From Bythopirellula goksoeyrii (GTDB lineage: Bacteria; Planctomycetota; Planctomycetia; Pirellulales; Lacipirellulaceae), in contig NZ_CP042913.1 in NCBI RefSeq assembly GCF_008065115.1, forward strand, positions 4,909,257-4,973,256: a stretch of DNA of 64,000 nt, given 5' to 3'. Both the position numbers and the translations under genes were made by a program. A model generated the notes under the pieces. That model was not told the origin of the DNA, did not search any database, and saw nothing but the letters and a program-made list of their open reading frames with translations. Shown one piece after another: positions 1,196 through 15,289 of this stretch (positions within the stretch are counted from its first letter, which is position 1; the number at the start of each line of letters is the position of its first letter).

Positions 1196-1738
1196 ATGAA
1201 AACTGTGTTAGCGCCTGCTCTCTGCCTGACAATTACCCTGGCGATCTCTCTGGCCTTGGCCACTGAGAAGGAACAACCCATTGCCAACTCGAGTGACAAC
1301 GCCTCGCCAGCAGCTGTCGAGCAAGCCAGGGAGACTGTCGCCATGCTGGACAACATCTACAAGCAGGTGATTGTCCTGATCACCGATAAATACGTTCACG
1401 ATACCGACGATTTCGCAGCCGGCAGCGCGGCTGTCCTGCTGTTCAAGAACATCTCTGAGAACGGTTCCCATACAGTGCGGCTGATCGACGCCACCGGCGA
1501 ACCCTACAACCCGGACAACATCGCGGGCGACGACTTCGAGCGTGAAGCCCTCAAGCAAATCAAGGCTGGCAAGCAGACCTACGACCAAGTCGAGGCCAAA
1601 GATGGCAAACAGTTCTTACGATCCATGACCCCGGTACCTGTCGTCATGGAGCGCTGCATCATGTGCCACGACCACTATGGAGACGTAGAAAAGGGCGAAC
1701 CCATCGGCGCGATCAGCTACACGATTCCGCTGGAGTGA
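1196..1738 (+). CDS. DUF3365 (Tll0287-like) exported haem-binding protein
   Basis: 180 residues. An N-terminal signal peptide is clear (Lys at position 2, then a hydrophobic stretch to about residue 21 ending L-A-T-E). The rest resembles the DUF3365/Tll0287-like haem sensor domain: a long helix with N-I-Y-K-Q near residue 55, a phrase close to 'NP-N-A-D-D-FE' in the middle, and the haem motif C154-I-M-C157-H158 before a final strand I-G-A-I-S. Family members are periplasmic c-type haem proteins, either alone or as sensor domains of histidine kinases and cyclases. Here the domain stands alone, so a sensor or electron-carrier role are both possible. It follows another CxxCH protein by 18 bp with a plausible AAAGGA ribosome site before the ATG, which supports co-transcription. 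Confidence 0.75.
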   Translation: MKTVLAPALCLTITLAISLALATEKEQPIANSSDNASPAAVEQARETVAMLDNIYKQVIVLITDKYVHDTDDFAAGSAAVLLFKNISENGSHTVRLIDATGEPYNPDNIAGDDFEREALKQIKAGKQTYDQVEAKDGKQFLRSMTPVPVVMERCIMCHDHYGDVEKGEPIGAISYTIPLE

Positions 1739-2307: not shown

Positions 2308-4692
2308 TTATTCGTTTGGGGCAGACCAGCGATTGCCCCAACCTGTATAAAGGTCGTGTAGAAACGCACGCCATTCTTCCGCTGTCCTCGAAGATGGATA
2401 GGGGCTAGGCGGCTCCGGCTTGGCGGCAGTCCAGACCACCTCGAATTGGCCATCGGACTTTACCTGGCCGATGCGGGGCGTCTTGAAGGTGTGTTGCGTC
2501 GCAGGGTCGATCCGCACCTCGCCACTAGGTGAGCTCATGCGTTGATTGAGCATGGCTCGGCGAATCTTACGCACGTTTGTGGTCCCGGCTTCAGTGACCG
2601 CTTGCGCCCAGAGCTTGACACCAAAGTAGGCGGACTCCATTGGGTCGGTTAAAACGCGCTGCGGCCCGTACTTCTTTCGGAAGCTGGCCACGAACAGCTC
2701 ATTTTCTTCCGAATCTATGCTCTGAAAATAGTTCCACGCAGCGTAATCGCCAGCCATTGCAGAGGCGTCCAGCTGGCGAAGTTCTTCCTCTTCAACGCTA
2801 AACGAGATCGTTGGGGTTGTTTCGGGAAGAATCCCTTCCGCGCGCAGGTCACTAAAGAACGCCCGGTTGGAGTCGCCGTTAATGGAGTTCAAGATTACGT
2901 CCGGCTTAGCGGCGATTATCTGTTCAATAATGGGTTGGACATCAGAGCTTCCGAGCGGTAGGAACGCCTCGCCAACAAGCTCTGCGCCAAGCTCTTTCAA
3001 CTGATCCTTGATAATGGCATGCGCCACTCGCGGAAAAACATAATCGGAACCTACTAGGAAGAAACGCCGCTTGTTCTCAAAGGCGTACGCCCACTTCACC
3101 GCGGGGATAATCTGCTGGTTGGGTGCAGCCCCCGTGTAGATGACATTGGAAGATTCCTCGATTCCTTCGTATTGCACAGGATAAACAAGCAGGTGGTCCA
3201 GCTCCTCAAACACAGGCACGACGGTTTTGCGACTTGCCGACGTCCAGCAACCGAAAACCGTGCAAACTTTTTCTTCCTCGATGAGACGCCTTGCTTCGCT
3301 CGCAAATCTGGCTGGGTCGGAACGACCGTCAGCCACTACAGCCTCCACTGGTCTTCCCAGCACGCCGCCACTACTGTTCAGTTCCTCCACTGCCAAAAGG
3401 GTGGCGTCAGCGACTGAAGTACCGCTGTGCCCCATTGTCCCGGTAAGCGATTGTAAGATGCCGATGCGAATAGGCTCTCCCGAGGGCGGGACTACGACGA
3501 TGGCGTCTTGCGTGATCTCTGAGGCCTTTGTATCAGCCAGTCCACGATCGCGTTGTCCAGAAGAAAAGACATAGGCGGCTCCTGCACCGATTAACGCAAG
3601 TAACCCTGCACCAGCAATGAGGGCAGTGGTAAAACTCCGTCTGCTCTTTGCAGTTGCTGCAGGCGCGGGTCGAACCAAGGTGGCAGACGACTGGCTCGGA
3701 AGCTGGATGCCCGCACCCGACATGGCTGCTAAAATGGCTTCCAAATCGCCACGCATTTCATCCATCGATTGGTATCGGTTTTCCGGATCTGTGGCCATCG
3801 CGCGCTGAATGATTGCTGCACAGGCCGCTGGAACCATCGCTCTCACTGCTCGTGGGTCAGGAGGCCCTGCGTGGCAGTGCGCAAACATCACTTGAACAAC
3901 GCTCCCGCTCTCCTGAAACGGACACTGACTCGTAAGCAAGCTATAGTAAGTGGCCCCCAGAGAATAGACATCGCTGCGGGCATCGACTTGCCCTGCCTCG
4001 CATTGTTCGGGACTCATGTAATAGGGAGTGCCGACGAGATGGCCAGCCTGGGTCATCATCATCGACTGATTTTCAGCTCGTTTTGCCAGACCAAAGTCAG
4101 CAACTTTTACCTCGCCATTTTCTGTCAGCAGCAAGTTCGCCGGCTTTACATCGCGATGCACGAGGCCCTGTTTATGCGCGGCAGCGAGTCCCTTGCAGGC
4201 TTCTATGGTCAGGCGAGTCGCTTCACTCACCGTGTAAGCGCCAGATTGTTCTAAGTGGTCTCCCGCGCTGCCCCCTGACACGACTTCCATGACGAGGTAA
4301 TACACTTCCTCCTCGTTGGCTACTTCGTAGATCGTGACCGCGTTGGGATGATTGAGCTTGCCGGCGCTTTTGGCTTCGGCGAGAAAGCGATGAAGTGCAT
4401 TCTTGTCGGCCGACAGCTCTGCAGGTAACACCTTGACTGCGACGTCACGTTCGATAGACGGATCGTAGGCCTTGAGCACAACCCCCATTCCTCCCAGGCC
4501 GAGAAGTGCTGTAATTTCGTACTTTCCAATCCGACGTCCCACCCACTCCTCTGGGCTGCGATGTAGCCCGCTCATAGACGCTGGTTTTGTATCGCCTCCC
4601 AAGAGCATTGTTTCATCGAGTGGACGCGGTGTCACAGGACTTTCAGAGTCGCTTTCAGGTCTTGCAGATTCGTCTGATGAAGATGGGTTCAC
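2308..4692 (-). CDS. Receptor Ser/Thr kinase with UrtA-like ligand-binding domain
   Basis: 794 residues in three parts. Residues 1-50 are a Ser/Pro/Glu-rich tail. Residues about 57-325 are a complete Hanks-type kinase: glycine loop G65-L-G-G-M-G70, Lys87, H179-R-D181, D199-F-G, and an A-P-E-like 'MSPEQ' near 226-230. A single membrane helix lies at about 354-376 after a basic cluster. Residues about 407-790 are a type 1 periplasmic binding protein of the UrtA/AmiC kind: 'GILQSLTG' opening, 'YPVQYEG' and 'TGAAPNQQ' signatures, and 'VGSDYVFPR'. The expected topology puts the kinase in the cytoplasm and the binding protein outside. UrtA proteins bind urea and AmiC binds amides, so the natural inference is a one-protein receptor phosphorylating on Ser/Thr in response to urea or a short amide. 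No urea ABC transporter genes are nearby. Confidence 0.9.
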   Translation of the reverse strand: MNPSSSDESARPESDSESPVTPRPLDETMLLGGDTKPASMSGLHRSPEEWVGRRIGKYEITALLGLGGMGVVLKAYDPSIERDVAVKVLPAELSADKNALHRFLAEAKSAGKLNHPNAVTIYEVANEEEVYYLVMEVVSGGSAGDHLEQSGAYTVSEATRLTIEACKGLAAAHKQGLVHRDVKPANLLLTENGEVKVADFGLAKRAENQSMMMTQAGHLVGTPYYMSPEQCEAGQVDARSDVYSLGATYYSLLTSQCPFQESGSVVQVMFAHCHAGPPDPRAVRAMVPAACAAIIQRAMATDPENRYQSMDEMRGDLEAILAAMSGAGIQLPSQSSATLVRPAPAATAKSRRSFTTALIAGAGLLALIGAGAAYVFSSGQRDRGLADTKASEITQDAIVVVPPSGEPIRIGILQSLTGTMGHSGTSVADATLLAVEELNSSGGVLGRPVEAVVADGRSDPARFASEARRLIEEEKVCTVFGCWTSASRKTVVPVFEELDHLLVYPVQYEGIEESSNVIYTGAAPNQQIIPAVKWAYAFENKRRFFLVGSDYVFPRVAHAIIKDQLKELGAELVGEAFLPLGSSDVQPIIEQIIAAKPDVILNSINGDSNRAFFSDLRAEGILPETTPTISFSVEEEELRQLDASAMAGDYAAWNYFQSIDSEENELFVASFRKKYGPQRVLTDPMESAYFGVKLWAQAVTEAGTTNVRKIRRAMLNQRMSSPSGEVRIDPATQHTFKTPRIGQVKSDGQFEVVWTAAKPEPPSPYPSSRTAEEWRAFLHDLYTGWGNRWSAPNE

Positions 4693-5803: not shown

Positions 5804-7156
5804 ATGTCTCGACAAATCAATCCTGTGAGAGTTCTCGTGGCGTGTCTGTCAATTTCTCTTGTATTCGCCTGTTGCCAATCTTTTGGGAGGGGCGGTAAAG
5901 GAGGTGGCGGAAGATCTCCTGGCGGATCCTGGTCGCAGAAATCTCATGGAGGGAGCCAGTCACGCGCGGGAGGACAAGCCCATACGGGCGGACAATATCA
6001 TTCTGGGGGACGCTCTGCTGAAAATCGAGGCGGTCGTAACGCTTCACAGGCCTCCCGGACGCAAGGTTTAGCAGGTGGTGCAGACTTCGCCAATCGTCGC
6101 GGGCCTCAGGCATCTGGTGCACAAGGTGCCGCCGGAGGTGCAGCCATTGCCAATCGTCGCGGGCCACAGGAATCCGGTGCAGAGGGTGCCGCCGGAGGCG
6201 CGGCCCTTGCCAAGCGTCGTGGGCCTCAAGCATCTGGAGCACAAGGTGCCGCCGCTGGTGCGGCCGTCTCTAAACGCAACGAGCCACAGTATAGCGGAGC
6301 ACAGGGCGCTGCTGCCGGTGCCGCTGTCTCCAATCGCAATCAACCTCAATACAGCGGAGCACAAGGTGCCGCCGCTGGCGCGGCCGTCTCTAAACGCAAC
6401 GCGCCACAGTATAGCGGAGCGCAGGGCGCAGCCGCTGGTGCGGCAGTTGCCGATCGCAATGAACCCGCAATGTCGGGCGCCGCCGGATATGCAGCGATTC
6501 AAAATTCGTTTGACAATCCGAATATGTTCGGCCGACAGTGGTATGGAAATCATCCGACCGCATGGGCTCCTTCAGCTTGGACTACCGGAGCAGCCTGGGC
6601 AGGGGTTTCACAAGCCGGAATAGCTCGTCACTTTGGCTACTCCGATGCTACCCCAATTTCATACGACTACGGAGTGAACGTGACTTGTGAGAATGATGAA
6701 GTGACCGTCGATGGCGAAAACATGGGGACGGCTGAGGAGTTCAGTCAGCAAGCTGCCGATCTCGCCAACCTGGGCTCTGAGGCGAGCGAAGTAGCAACCG
6801 ATCGATGGTTGGCCTTGGGCGTGTACGCAATGGTTCGCAACGAACAACAACATCCGCAACTGATTCTGCAATTGGCGATCAATGAAAAGGGCATCTTACG
6901 GGGCAATTTCACTGACGAAATCACCGATCGCATTTCACCGATCCATGGTGCAGTGGACAAAAAGACCCAGCGGGCCGCTTGGACCGTGGGCGACAACCAT
7001 CAAACCGTCATGGAAGCGGGTCTTAATAACCTCACTGATAGTTCAGCCCCTGCGCTCGTCCACAAGAATGGCAAGACCGACCATTGGCTGTTGGTGCGTC
7101 TCAACGAACCCCCGCAGAATGGCGACGTCGAGGCTGGTTCCGGACCAGCGGAATAG
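5804..7156 (+). CDS. Exported Gly/Ala-rich repeat protein, probable surface protein
   Basis: 450 residues. The N-terminus is a signal peptide (Arg at 3, hydrophobic to about residue 25, with a Cys pair at 23-24 that could be a lipobox-like site but is not a standard one). Residues 29-95 are very rich in Gly, Ser, His and Arg. Residues about 90-225 hold a 20-residue tandem repeat with consensus x-P-Q-x-S-G-A-Q-G-A-A-x-G-A-A-x-x-x-R-x. The C-terminal 200 residues are a separate folded domain beginning with aromatic W-Y-G-N-H-P-x-x-W. Planctomycete relatives are often labelled 'mu-protocadherin' or 'cell surface protein', but no function is established. I infer export and a structural or adhesive role. 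The repeat is DNA-level, so its number probably varies between strains. Confidence 0.75.
   Translation: MSRQINPVRVLVACLSISLVFACCQSFGRGGKGGGGRSPGGSWSQKSHGGSQSRAGGQAHTGGQYHSGGRSAENRGGRNASQASRTQGLAGGADFANRRGPQASGAQGAAGGAAIANRRGPQESGAEGAAGGAALAKRRGPQASGAQGAAAGAAVSKRNEPQYSGAQGAAAGAAVSNRNQPQYSGAQGAAAGAAVSKRNAPQYSGAQGAAAGAAVADRNEPAMSGAAGYAAIQNSFDNPNMFGRQWYGNHPTAWAPSAWTTGAAWAGVSQAGIARHFGYSDATPISYDYGVNVTCENDEVTVDGENMGTAEEFSQQAADLANLGSEASEVATDRWLALGVYAMVRNEQQHPQLILQLAINEKGILRGNFTDEITDRISPIHGAVDKKTQRAAWTVGDNHQTVMEAGLNNLTDSSAPALVHKNGKTDHWLLVRLNEPPQNGDVEAGSGPAE
6101..6460 (+). repeat. Six 60-bp in-frame tandem repeats
   Basis: Six consecutive 60-bp units (starts at 6101, 6161, 6221, 6281, 6341, 6401), each encoding 20 residues, with degenerate half units on both sides. 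Units 4 and 6 are nearly identical in DNA, so recent duplication is likely. All lie inside the exported repeat protein and keep its frame. Confidence 0.9.
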
Positions 7157-8624: not shown

Positions 8625-11600
8625 ATGTCGATGTCTATAGATCTCAGCAAGTCGTTGGGCATAAATAACAACTCAGATCCAGAAGAGATCGCGTCGATTC
8701 GTCAGCAATTGATTCGGTACATCAACCTGCAACTCATCGCTAGCGGGCTACCCCATGCCGCTGATGCGAGCGACAGCCCTTTTGCCGAGATGGCGCGCGG
8801 ACTCCTGGACCAACATCGAGCACAAACGCGTTTGTTGTCAGATCATCGCTGCCCGGTCGATGAGCGTATCGAATCTTTTCTTGAAAAGTACTTTGAGGAC
8901 TTGAATCTGTCTGACCCAGTTCGATTGCCATCACACACGCTGATAGTCGATCGGCATGGGATGGCTCGCGAAATGGCGCTGCCTGCGAATGAAGATGAAT
9001 ATCATTCAGATATTATTCAATCTTTTCGTGTGCGAAACGGTGTCCTGCACAATCCCAGACATGACAAAAGAACCACCAAGGGGACCTTCCATGTCACCGA
9101 AGGCGGGTTGCCGATTCCCTACGAAAAGCGCGCTGTTCCTAAACGCGCATTTGCTGAGTTGCTACGACGTGCCTTGGATCCTCCTGAGGAATTGAAACGC
9201 CTTCCGTTCACATCGCAACAAGAAGAGCAAGCGAGTTGCTTCGTATCGTTGCTACTGCGACCCTTAGTTTGTCCCGAGGTGAGAGGCGTTACCCCCGCCA
9301 AGTCGATGGAGGTGCGATTCTTCGCTCCAGGTACGTTGGTTAGCAATCTCGATTTCGTCGAGTCCATCTTCGGAAACGCGGGGGATCCCTATATTCCCGA
9401 AAACGATGCCGGGCTGGATGTCGAACATTGGACTGGGCACACGGGTGCCGTGATTCTCGCGCCGCATCTTGAGACGGTTACCAAGCAGGAAATCGGCCTC
9501 CCCCACTACGACGAAGCAACCGAGCGTCAGCGTCGTGACGAGATGTGTTGGCGAGAAAAAGATGAACTCTACAACGGGGGGCAACCGTTCAAGCTCACAT
9601 GCCGCGATGCATCGGGGGTAATTGTCACGCTGATCTCTGACAATTACTTTGGCTATTGCAAGAAAGAAGTGAAAACACAGATCAGCTATGCGGCCAATCT
9701 CTCGGGCAACTACGAGGAAGAACACGCTGGCGGTACGATCGCGTTTCCAAGCTACAACTTGGGCGACGAATTTCAGTTCAACAGCATTCGGTACAATGGC
9801 CGCACTTTTGCTGATGTCGTCAAAGATTATGGCACACAGATCAATGTGCACCAGGAAGGTTTTGCCGAAGATCAGCTATTTCCTGATCTGATTTATGTTC
9901 GCGAGGACGCTCGTGCTGACATTGTTCGTCAGCAAATCATCTGGGAGCACGAAGGAGTCGAACAGTCGATACCTTTGTTACCGGGAAAAGTCTACATGGG
10001 GCCCTCGGGGTACCAGCTACGAATGGAAAAGCATCCAGCGGCTCCGAGTTGGCGACTCGTCGGTACGATCGGCGAAGGAGTTTTCTGCCACAAGCCTTGC
10101 ACTGTGAGCGGTGGTGGAAAAAGCGAGATTAGCAAGTCGATTCGCGACTACATGCACTTTGGCCCGTTCTTCGTTGCCGATATCGACGAAGATGCCCAGA
10201 TGGTCAATGACATTTTTGCCCGCAACTATCAGAACCGCTGGAAGGTCGAGCGCGACTATTCCGAATCCCCGACTCGCAGCATACTGAGCCCAAGACGTTC
10301 ACTCGGCAGCGTAATCAAACTGCTAACCCCTTCGCCTGAGTACACCGACGAATACAACGACTGGCTGCAGACAATCCCGGCACATGTCTACGCGATGGTG
10401 TACATCATCAAGCGGTTCCATAAGCCAGAATGGGGCGACCAATGGCAAGATCACTTTGGCGTGGACGTGATCAATGGAGAGAGTGGGCATGAGCTGAAAT
10501 ACCATGGCCGCAGTCTCGTCGCATCGTATTTGAAAGTTGGGCTCGTAGAGCCGCAAGCCTGGCGAACATTCAAACTACGACAGGACTTCATCGCTTCGGA
10601 GAAGATGCAAGCCGAAGATGACATTAGCGCTTCGGTGGTCGTTCCCGCCGATCGGCTACAGTATCTAGCTGCTGGCAGTGAGGCGAACAGCTATAAATTC
10701 GTTGAAAACTGTGAGTATCGTTTCTTTCAACGTCCCGACGATGCGATCCATCGCGGACTCGACAAGCAAGCAGAATTTGATCTCTCCCAGCCAGGGAATT
10801 TCATTTCGAACTTCGAACCGCTTACCCTCAAGCAAGTCTCCGAAATGGCAAAGTACGTCGTCGACTTCGACGCTTTCAGCCAGCCGATGCAAGATCTTCT
10901 GACCGATTTGCAGAAGCAGGAAGATGGCTACGTGGTTTGCTCGGCCAACCCGCGACAAGTGGGCGGCAAGCCGACCCGCAATCCTCGCTACTTGCAAGTC
11001 CGCCCCGACTTGGTGCGGCCAATCGACGGCTATGTCGCCGAAATGGGAACGCGACTCTATCGGGCCGTGCCTGCCGATGCTCCCGTCCATAGGCCAGTTG
11101 GAGCGGTTTTGATGGGGCGCCGCAACAACCCGCCTGATCTTGCCCAGGGAATTCGAGGACTCGCCGTTTACAATCCGGTTCACTACCAGGAACTGCCCGA
11201 ATTGTTCATGGACCTGATCACATCACTGACAGGGCGCAGCCCATCGACGACCGGATTCGGCAGCGAGGGTGCCCTCACCAAAGGACCCTTCAATGCACTT
11301 CGCATGACGGCTGATCTCAATGCTGCACTCGTGAGCTTTATTCTGACAGGGCTCGGTGGGTTTTCGACCGCTGCTGGCCATATTGGTCCCAACGTACGCG
11401 TCGACCACGACATCAGTCTGTTGATCCCCGAAGTTTGGTGTCGCATGTCTGCCGAGGAACGTACGCCTGAGTTTTTGATAAAGAAACGGCTGCTCGAACC
11501 AGTCGAAGATTTCCAACACAACGGCCAAACAATACCTGCCGGAAGGTTGGGCTATCGCATCACCTATCGATTCGTCCGCTGGTTCTTCGCCCGCGTGTTC

Positions 11601-12092
11601 GACAATCCCAACAAGCTGTTCGATGAATCCATTTTGCGACCCGAGCTACAGGATCTCGATGCCTTTGCCGATGGAGTCCTCTACATAGCGGATGCCCAAA
11701 AACAAGTAGCCCAACAATATCTCGATGACGGCTCGATCGAAGATGCCTGCCCACCTCTACGGGCGCTCCTGCGAATCATGGCCGAAGGGTCCTTCGAAGG
11801 CAAAACCGAACGCGACCCCGAAATCCGTGAGATGTTTACTCTCCAATCACTCCTGAAAAGTGATTGGTATCAGAAGCGTTTGGAGGCGCGTCAACACCGC
11901 GATATCAAGTTGTGGTCAAGGCATGTCGACTACTTAAAAAACTTCAACGCGAATCCGTACAACAGTGAAGTCGTCAACCGCATGGACCTCGCCGCTCGAG
12001 AATCAATAGCTAAAGCAGAACTCGAAACCGTGAAGTCACCAAACTACATTTCATCCCTTATCGGAGCGATCGGCGCCGATTCGTTTGACTAA
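8625..12092 (+). CDS. Probable pyrophosphate-type PEP carboxykinase (large form)
   Basis: 1155 residues, much longer than ATP- or GTP-type PEP carboxykinases (about 530-620) and matching the PPi-dependent enzymes described from Propionibacterium freudenreichii and Entamoeba. Features I recognise: a segment near residue 235-250 reading [16 protein letters not shown], followed by [10 protein letters not shown]; a very conserved [12 protein letters not shown] block near residue 350; and [10 protein letters not shown] near residue 505 in place of the usual nucleotide P-loop. The reaction would be the reversible exchange of oxaloacetate + PPi for PEP + CO2 + Pi, in the cytoplasm. It would link PEP and C4 metabolism without spending ATP. 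The gene stands alone. Assignment is from remembered family motifs, not an alignment. Confidence 0.68.
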
Positions 12093-13327: not shown

Positions 13328-15289
13328 ATGAAAAGCTTAGCGCTCGTCTCTCGTGTGATCGCCATCTTGGCGATCGTTCTCAGTACGGTTCAACTCTCGG
13401 CAAAGTCAACCGACAACCCGGCCGCCGATGAAATATTTCGTCAGGCATTGGCCGCTGCAGTCCGGGGCGACTCGGCTCTGCACGACCGTCTGCTGGCCGA
13501 ATCACTGCAAAGGTATCCAGACTACGAATTGGCGCGGTGGTATAGCGGACAGGTCGAATACGATGGTCAGTGGAAGTCCATCGACTCCGTAAGTCAATCG
13601 GTTTCGACCAATCCACTGTGGCAGGAGTATCAAGCGCGACTGGCACAGCTTGGCGACTCCCTACAGGAGCAAACTGACATGGCGCGCTGGTGCCATTCCA
13701 ATGACCTTTCGTATCAGGAGAAATGGCATTGGCTCAGTGTATTGGCAGTCGATCCTAAGAATCGTGAGGCATTAGGCAGCCTGGGACTACGAATCTACAA
13801 AGGCCAATACTTAACTTCCGAACAGATTGACGAATACGAACGCAGCGAAGAACAGGCCGAGGCCGATTACAAGAAGTTCACCAAGCAATTCGATCGGTGG
13901 CTCAAGACCGCAATTCGTGGCAACTCTCAAGACATGCAGTCCCTTGTCAACAAGATAGCAGCCATTGAAGACAACGCGGCAATTCCTGCGCTAGTGGATA
14001 CGTTTTATCTCGACGGGAGTATCGACAAATCGGTTCAGAAGAAGTTGGGGAACGAAAAAGGTGACCAACTACTCGGCCAGTTGCGTCGGGCGGTTGTCCA
14101 GGCGCTCAGTGAAATGAAGCAGCCAGAGGCAACTCGGGCTCTCTTGGAAATAGCGGTCGAGTGGCCGCAACCGGACGTCGCAACACTTGCTGCCGAAGGG
14201 CTTAAGGAACGCGAGAAGACCAGCTTCATGCCTGCCTTGATGGGAGCCATGTCTTCTCCACTGGAAGCTGCCATTTCGATCCGAGTTGCCCCCAGTGGAC
14301 AGGTATCTGTCTACGAGGATATTGCGGAGATCCATCCACTTGCTGAGAAAAGCCATTTTCAAACCAGCAAATATCTCACGCAATATTCTCTGACGTTGAA
14401 CGACAGCAAGACAGTCACAGACTACCGAGGCATGAGAAGCTGGAGAGATGCTCCAAAGACGACGACTAATAGCCAGTCGGTAACAAAAGTCTGGTCGGAT
14501 CGAGTACGCGATTTTAACAATGCTACGGCCCAAGCAACCAGCACGCGCGAACGGGTCGATCAGGAAAACGCCCTGCGTGAACAGCGCAACTCGCGAGTCC
14601 AGGAGGTTCTCCAGATAGTCACGGGCAAGGATCTAGGTAGCGAACCCAAGGCTTGGTGGGATTCCTGGAAGCACTACAACGAACTCTATACGCCAGAACA
14701 ACTTCCCGTCTATGAAACGGCGGATAGTCGAGACTATTCACAGTATTACTACCAGTATCAATATCGTCACAGAAATTATTCGGTTGGCACCCCACCTCCT
14801 CCACCTCCTGTCCCCCCGGGGACATACTCTTGCTTTGTGGCTGGAACTCCCGTGTGGACTCAAACTGGGCCGGTTGCGATTGAAACGGTCCAGGTTGGCG
14901 ACATGGTGCTAAGCCAAGATCCTTTCACGGGAGAACTGGACTATCGCCCCGTGATGGAAACCAGTGTCGGCCCCCCCAGTCCCATCCTGAATCTCAAGAT
15001 AGAGAATGAAACACTTGGCACGACCCGTGGCCATCGATTCTGGGTCGCGAATAGTGGCTGGAAAATGTCGAAGTTCCTCAAACCTGGAAACCGCCTAGTC
15101 GCTCTCGGAGGTTACCCCGAGTTGCATCAGGTCGAAGAAGGAAAAGAGAGTCAAGCGTTTAACCTGGTTGTCGGTCAATTCCACACCTATTTCGTGGGCA
15201 ATCAAAAACTGTTGGTCCACGATAAGAATTGCCCGCTCCCCACGACCAACACCTTACCCGGCGTTGAGCAACTCGCGACCACCAACTAA
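13328..15289 (+). CDS. Exported HEAT-like protein ending in an orphan HINT autoprocessing domain
   Basis: 653 residues. A signal peptide (Lys2, hydrophobic to about residue 25, A-K-S cut region) follows a good GGAGG site. Residues about 30-320 are helical repeats of TPR/HEAT type (including A-x-x-A-L-V-D-T-F near 220). Residues 470-500 form a Tyr/Pro-rich linker with six consecutive Pro. From Cys502 the protein becomes a pretoxin-type HINT domain: C502-F-V-A-G-T-P start, T-R-G-H569 block-B histidine, H-T-Y-F-V near 620, and V-H-D-K-N634-C635 at the end, the splice-junction-like Asn-Cys. Only 18 residues follow. In polymorphic toxins HINT releases a C-terminal toxin; here no toxin domain and no immunity gene follow, so the toxin is lost or the domain does something else, such as surface anchoring. 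Confidence 0.85.
   Translation: MKSLALVSRVIAILAIVLSTVQLSAKSTDNPAADEIFRQALAAAVRGDSALHDRLLAESLQRYPDYELARWYSGQVEYDGQWKSIDSVSQSVSTNPLWQEYQARLAQLGDSLQEQTDMARWCHSNDLSYQEKWHWLSVLAVDPKNREALGSLGLRIYKGQYLTSEQIDEYERSEEQAEADYKKFTKQFDRWLKTAIRGNSQDMQSLVNKIAAIEDNAAIPALVDTFYLDGSIDKSVQKKLGNEKGDQLLGQLRRAVVQALSEMKQPEATRALLEIAVEWPQPDVATLAAEGLKEREKTSFMPALMGAMSSPLEAAISIRVAPSGQVSVYEDIAEIHPLAEKSHFQTSKYLTQYSLTLNDSKTVTDYRGMRSWRDAPKTTTNSQSVTKVWSDRVRDFNNATAQATSTRERVDQENALREQRNSRVQEVLQIVTGKDLGSEPKAWWDSWKHYNELYTPEQLPVYETADSRDYSQYYYQYQYRHRNYSVGTPPPPPPVPPGTYSCFVAGTPVWTQTGPVAIETVQVGDMVLSQDPFTGELDYRPVMETSVGPPSPILNLKIENETLGTTRGHRFWVANSGWKMSKFLKPGNRLVALGGYPELHQVEEGKESQAFNLVVGQFHTYFVGNQKLLVHDKNCPLPTTNTLPGVEQLATTN

Follow-up and report, generated by a model that had tools for sequence, protein, structure and literature searches.

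A planctomycete receptor Ser/Thr kinase with a UrtA-type sensor domain and a urea-type pocket

Which compound does a membrane-bound Ser/Thr kinase perceive when its outer half resembles a urea-binding protein? The question is raised by a gene in a 64,000-nucleotide stretch of the Bythopirellula goksoeyrii genome, referred to here as the window. One open reading frame, at exactly 2308-4692 on the reverse strand, encodes a PF00069 kinase domain, one membrane helix and a PF13433 sensor domain, which bears out the fusion claimed in an earlier note on this DNA; the motifs YPVQYEG, TGAAPNQQ and VGSDYVFPR listed there are all present in the translation. Dozens of planctomycete genomes encode the same kinase-helix-sensor architecture, and this recurrence, together with an E-value of 8e-153, indicates that it did not arise by chance. 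Rhodopirellula maiorica SM1 (L005), which is in culture, is one of the relatives that carry the fusion. The protein is the only one in the 6.47-Mb genome that matches PF13433. In RefSeq, such proteins go by the name 'bifunctional serine/threonine-protein kinase/ABC transporter substrate-binding protein'. The coordinates of the features are collected in Table 1.

Table 1. Features of the receptor kinase gene, with positions in the window; aa, residues of the encoded protein.
Feature	Position	Strand	Basis
Whole gene, receptor Ser/Thr kinase with UrtA-type sensor	2308..4692	-	ORF, 794 aa, GTG start; architecture recurs in many planctomycetes
Hanks-type kinase domain, aa 58-309	3766..4521	-	PF00069, 174.8 bits
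Activation-loop stretch, aa 201-222, candidate phosphorylation sites (S, T)	4027..4092	-	sequence; low-confidence, flexible in full-length model
Single transmembrane helix, aa 353-377	3562..3636	-	hydropathy maximum 2.06 at aa 358; sequence
UrtA-type periplasmic sensor domain, aa 404-794	2311..3483	-	PF13433, 509 bits at aa 408-769; model pLDDT 94.7; urea-binding proteins closest, Z 57-58
Pocket W483, S485 (UrtA W120, S122)	3238..3246	-	alignment to 8hic; roles from PMC10392092
Pocket Y504, Q507, E509 (UrtA Y141, Q144, E146)	3166..3183	-	alignment to 8hic; roles from PMC10392092
Pocket Y551, F553 (UrtA Y190, F192)	3034..3042	-	alignment to 8hic; roles from PMC10392092
Pocket N605 (UrtA N246)	2878..2880	-	alignment to 8hic; roles from PMC10392092
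Pocket S632 (UrtA S274)	2797..2799	-	alignment to 8hic; roles from PMC10392092
C-terminal signature, aa 765-793, YPSSRTAEEWRAFLHDLYTGWGNRWSAPN	2314..2400	-	alignment of fusions; typical of signalling branch

The hydrophobic segment assigned as the membrane helix is the only such peak in the protein, and a basic AKSRR stretch lies on its N-terminal side. The predicted topology, with the kinase in the cytoplasm and the binding domain outside, fits the single helix and its basic inner flank and is consistent with the extracytoplasmic C-terminal half proposed in the earlier note. The neighbouring genes give no functional hint, and no conserved neighbourhood was found across 22 fusion loci and the window locus. 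The kinase gene is adjoined by a gene for a Tll0287-like protein (PF11845; window 1196-1738, forward strand), with no sign of a functional link. Three further forward-strand genes of the window encode a 450-residue protein of degenerate repeats of about 20 residues (SGAQGAAAGAAVSKRN...; 5804-7156) and an ORF of 1155 residues (8625-12092), both with no Pfam match, and a 653-residue protein (13328-15289) that combines weak HEAT repeats with a PT-HINT domain near its C-terminus (61.8 bits) and ends shortly after the Hint domain.

The kinase half displays a complete set of motifs, comprising the GLGGMG loop (residues 65-70), Lys87, HRDVKPANLL (residues 179-188), DFG (residues 199-201) and SPEQ (residues 227-230), which is the APE-type motif of this kinase. 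A comparison of 20 fusion kinases shows 13 key residues to be conserved in every one. A degenerate kinase is ruled out by the integrity of every catalytic motif, and the domain is predicted to be an intact enzyme with Ser/Thr activity.

The sensor half scores 471.5 bits against the NCBIfam model of UrtA (TIGR03407), below its curated cut-off of 492.75. A search of solved relatives by sequence places 8tg1 first (417 bits), followed by three UrtA structures (333-317 bits), AmiC (196 bits) and a long tail of other binders. The closest folds to the sensor model are 8tg1, 7s6e, 8hic and 7s6f, each of which bears a title that names either a urea-binding protein or urea-bound UrtA. AmiC (Z 52.5), the 4-hydroxybenzoate binders (about 44) and LivJ/LivK (about 42) are weaker matches. 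A grouping with the branched-chain amino-acid binders, which according to the earlier note would have spoken against a urea sensor, was not found: these proteins have far weaker sequence E-values and Z values of about 42 against 57-58 for the urea binders, and the sensor groups with urea-binding proteins by sequence, fold and tree, in a comparison set compiled without the formamide-binding FmdD proteins. A branched-chain amino-acid binder is thus ruled out by the pocket, the tree and the fold.

The name 'urea' in a family model is no guarantee of the pocket, as illustrated by a Methylobacterium gene named urtA beside urease genes (L169:4863-6095, forward strand), in which the urea pocket is replaced (FSYFEYWVS). 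In the structure of UrtA from Prochlorococcus, nine residues lie close to urea, each of which was mutated; eight of them are strictly conserved in UrtA, and mutation of any main contact cuts or abolishes binding (PMC10392092). We mapped the pocket of the window protein by alignment to 8hic, and the spacing of the residues agreed with the published numbering (PMC10392092). All nine residues are identical to those of Prochlorococcus UrtA, at an overall identity of 44%, and the same nine are found in 8tg1, the nearest relative by sequence. The chance that nine random residues would all match is 5e-4, a figure that makes the case look stronger than it is, the pocket columns being conserved family-wide; the identity of the pocket partly reflects this conservation. 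The lining of the AmiC pocket is different, reading YSYPEYYVT against WSYQEYFNS in the window protein, with substitutions at five of the nine positions (W120 to Y, Q144 to P, F192 to Y, N246 to V and S274 to T). The comparison with UrtA and AmiC called for in the earlier note therefore reveals no loss of urea-contacting residues, and an AmiC-type amide receptor is ruled out by the pocket, as well as by the tree and the fold.

The pocket is not uniform among the fusions. Five of them have a common replaced pocket, in which W120 is changed to C or F, Q144 to N, N246 to S or T, and S274 to G, and Q144 is E, A or W in further fusions; these positions are thus free to change. G016, L087, G028 and L084 are among the relatives with an altered pocket. 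The eight strictly conserved residues are intact in 13 of the 22 fusions of a first set, and 17 of the 21 new members of a later set of 27 loci have an intact pocket; the counts are biased toward intact pockets, as similarity to the window set the ranking of the fusion loci.

A careful tree of 61 sensor domains unites all 22 kinase fusions in one clade (bootstrap 100, SH-aLRT 97). Around this clade is a larger group (96/96), to which stand-alone UrtA-like proteins also belong and whose members come from Planctomycetota, Chloroflexota and Pseudomonadota; the urtBCDE-linked UrtA proteins lie apart from it, and a quick tree of 99 rows agrees on the main points. In the eight of the 12 stand-alone rows that were checked, the next gene encodes a dCache histidine kinase or a chemoreceptor (the other four rows are L107, L108, L110 and L094); at L156, the UrtA-like gene is followed by genes for an MCP, CheW, CheR and a CheA-receiver protein. 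In Shewanella hanedai, the gene of the UrtA-like sensor (L007:6905-8119, forward strand), which lies ahead of that of a dCache histidine kinase, is broken into two ORFs, perhaps owing to a frameshift. A third set, with a tree branch of its own, consists of fusions between UrtA-like domains and histidine kinases that carry receiver domains; in L148:7686-10526, L149:5639-8848 and L150:5542-8379, the domain is fused directly to a histidine kinase and two receiver domains, with an Hpt domain in one of them. Most members of the signalling branch carry the C-terminal signature R-x4-W-x-x-h-L-x-x-L-x-x-x-W-x-x-x-W, which is absent from the transport UrtAs inspected, the C-terminal ends of which differ. 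Judged from sequence, the sensor is a member of a separate signalling branch of UrtA-like proteins. Capture of a transport UrtA by a kinase is ruled out, the nearest relatives being signalling proteins that are not linked to urtBCDE.

The kinases attached to this single sensor clade occupy three separate places in a quick tree of 72 rows, built without bootstraps: a main group that includes the window kinase, a pair within another kinase family (G053:C116 and G055:C142), and a pair at a third position (G055:C187 and G053:C30). The sensor has thus become attached to at least three kinase lineages, of which the main one is also found fused to an unrelated solute-binding domain, SBP_bac_11 (L197:286-2535, reverse strand). 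Domain shuffling on both sides, sensor and kinase, is what these alignments and trees indicate.

These features lead us to propose that the protein is a single-pass receptor Ser/Thr kinase, the periplasmic, Venus-flytrap domain of which probably binds urea. The proposal is built, from sequence and structural model, on the intact kinase, the single helix, the UrtA fold, the intact urea pocket and the descent from a signalling branch. Binding of urea would close the flytrap, and closure would be relayed across the single helix by a change in how the receptor is arranged or dimerised, probably in the geometry of the dimer, as is the case for single-pass receptor kinases elsewhere. As a result, the kinase would autophosphorylate its activation loop (residues 201-222) more or less strongly, and the phosphorylation of cytoplasmic targets might change likewise. 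The urea- or amide-controlled phosphorylation suggested in the earlier note is therefore retained in part: the pocket is urea-type at nine of nine positions, the amide half of the suggestion is weaker, the pocket being not AmiC-type, and control of the kinase by urea is presumed.

The gene content of the fusion genomes bears on the role of such a ligand. Urease alpha was found above the cut-off neither in the window genome nor in 29 other fusion genomes; it is present in 3 of 45 non-fusion genomes and is rare in the group anyway, so that its absence is weak evidence and does not amount to an anticorrelation. Neither UrtB above the cut-off nor a full-length urea carboxylase was detected in 16 fusion genomes, that of the window included, in which the urea carboxylase (TIGR02712) matches are partial and correspond mostly to biotin-carboxylase parts. 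Of 11 fusion genomes searched for arginase-family enzymes, 10 have none, the window genome among them. No enzyme of these kinds is thus there to account for the sensing of urea in the window genome. The absence of urease, UrtB and urea carboxylase argues against a simple circuit in which urea is sensed and then eaten; because the window genome lacks urease and UrtB, urea is here more probably a cue from the environment than a source of nitrogen to be imported.

The same gene content favours the strongest alternative, in which the receptor-kinase mechanism is the same and the natural ligand is another compound that fits the pocket, for instance formamide, a short amide or a different molecule similar to urea. 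The window genome, devoid of urease, UrtB and arginase-family genes, contains one ORF of the formamidase/acetamidase family (PF03069, 68.5 bits), as do five other fusion genomes, which keeps a short-amide ligand in consideration, and the altered pockets of sister fusions show that specificity moves within the clade. The alternative is nevertheless rather unlikely, given that all nine residues of the urea pocket are identical to those of UrtA, that five of these are different in AmiC, the amide receptor of solved structure, and that PF03069 is a broad family present in just 6 of the 16 fusion genomes; a link of FmdA/AmdA to the sensor is weak. It is improbable that the main signal of the sensor is not a free small molecule, the domain docking a periplasmic protein or serving as a structural or constitutive module. 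The conserved C-terminal signature lies outside the pocket and could be a docking or coupling element, and the binding protein of the PknG system works through protein contacts (PMC6069109); however, most fusions have selectively retained the complete pocket and one sub-clade has replaced it in a coordinated way, a pattern expected of evolution driven by a ligand. A dual role, in which the domain also delivers urea to an ABC permease, is suggested by its homology to UrtA and is hardly credible, as the genome has no UrtB above the cut-off, no permease genes (and no UrtBCDE) lie among the unrelated neighbours of the gene, and the domain is membrane-tethered and belongs to the signalling branch.

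Returning to urea as the ligand, a wider reading is offered tentatively. External urea may serve as a cue for a receptor Ser/Thr kinase in bacteria without urea hydrolysis, UrtABCDE import or visible production of urea, and a dedicated signalling branch may have been linked successively to histidine kinases, to chemoreceptors and to no fewer than three lineages of Ser/Thr kinase, with ligand specificity shifting in some members of the branch. If urea is confirmed, it would be a signal for organisms that apparently do not feed on it. The pocket is so near to the crystallised urea site that one ligand can be named for testing, and the clade supplies natural controls, namely the same kinase lineage with altered pockets and the same sensor with other kinases.

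The earlier note regarded this signalling form as not known to be described, which holds in one respect and not in another. Fusions of kinases with solute-binding domains were noted in 2018, with MSMEG_1200 as the example and about 260 more in InterPro (PMC6069109), whereas no description of a urea-sensing Ser/Thr kinase, of a urea-type sensor on such a kinase or of this planctomycete fusion was found in the open-licence literature, a scope that does not extend to the full domain list of the kinase survey PMC11032199. As in the MSMEG_1200 (StpK7) class, kinase and solute-binding domain share one polypeptide (PMC6069109); the halves of the window protein are joined by a membrane helix, and the StpK7 model NF052427 matches residues 53-395 with 206.6 bits, far below its cut-off of 900, and does not reach the sensor domain. 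The GlnH-GlnX-PknG system of mycobacteria and corynebacteria demonstrates that a nitrogen compound can act on a Ser/Thr kinase through a periplasmic binding protein that controls it (PMC6069109), but it consists of three separate proteins, with aspartate/glutamate as ligand and a soluble kinase.

AmiC of Pseudomonas (1pea) resembles the sensor in fold and in its sensory rather than transport role. Its target is the antiterminator AmiR, however, and the AmiC pocket is unlike that of the window protein; an AmiR partner with an ANTAR domain is present beside the AmiC-type proteins of L171 and L172 and was not found among the neighbours of the window gene. UrtA (8hic, 7s6e, 7s6f) and the Caldicellulosiruptor urea-binding protein 8tg1 share both the fold and the nine pocket residues with the sensor, but UrtA is a free periplasmic transport protein encoded beside urtBCDE, whereas the window protein is tethered to a kinase in the membrane, differs from it at the C-terminus and falls outside the branch linked to urtBCDE. 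The pairs of an UrtA-like protein with a dCache histidine kinase or chemoreceptor (for example, L006, L008, L156 and L158) belong to the same sensor branch as the window protein and in most cases carry the C-terminal signature. In contrast to the window protein, they have the sensor on a polypeptide of its own and a histidine kinase or a chemoreceptor as output.
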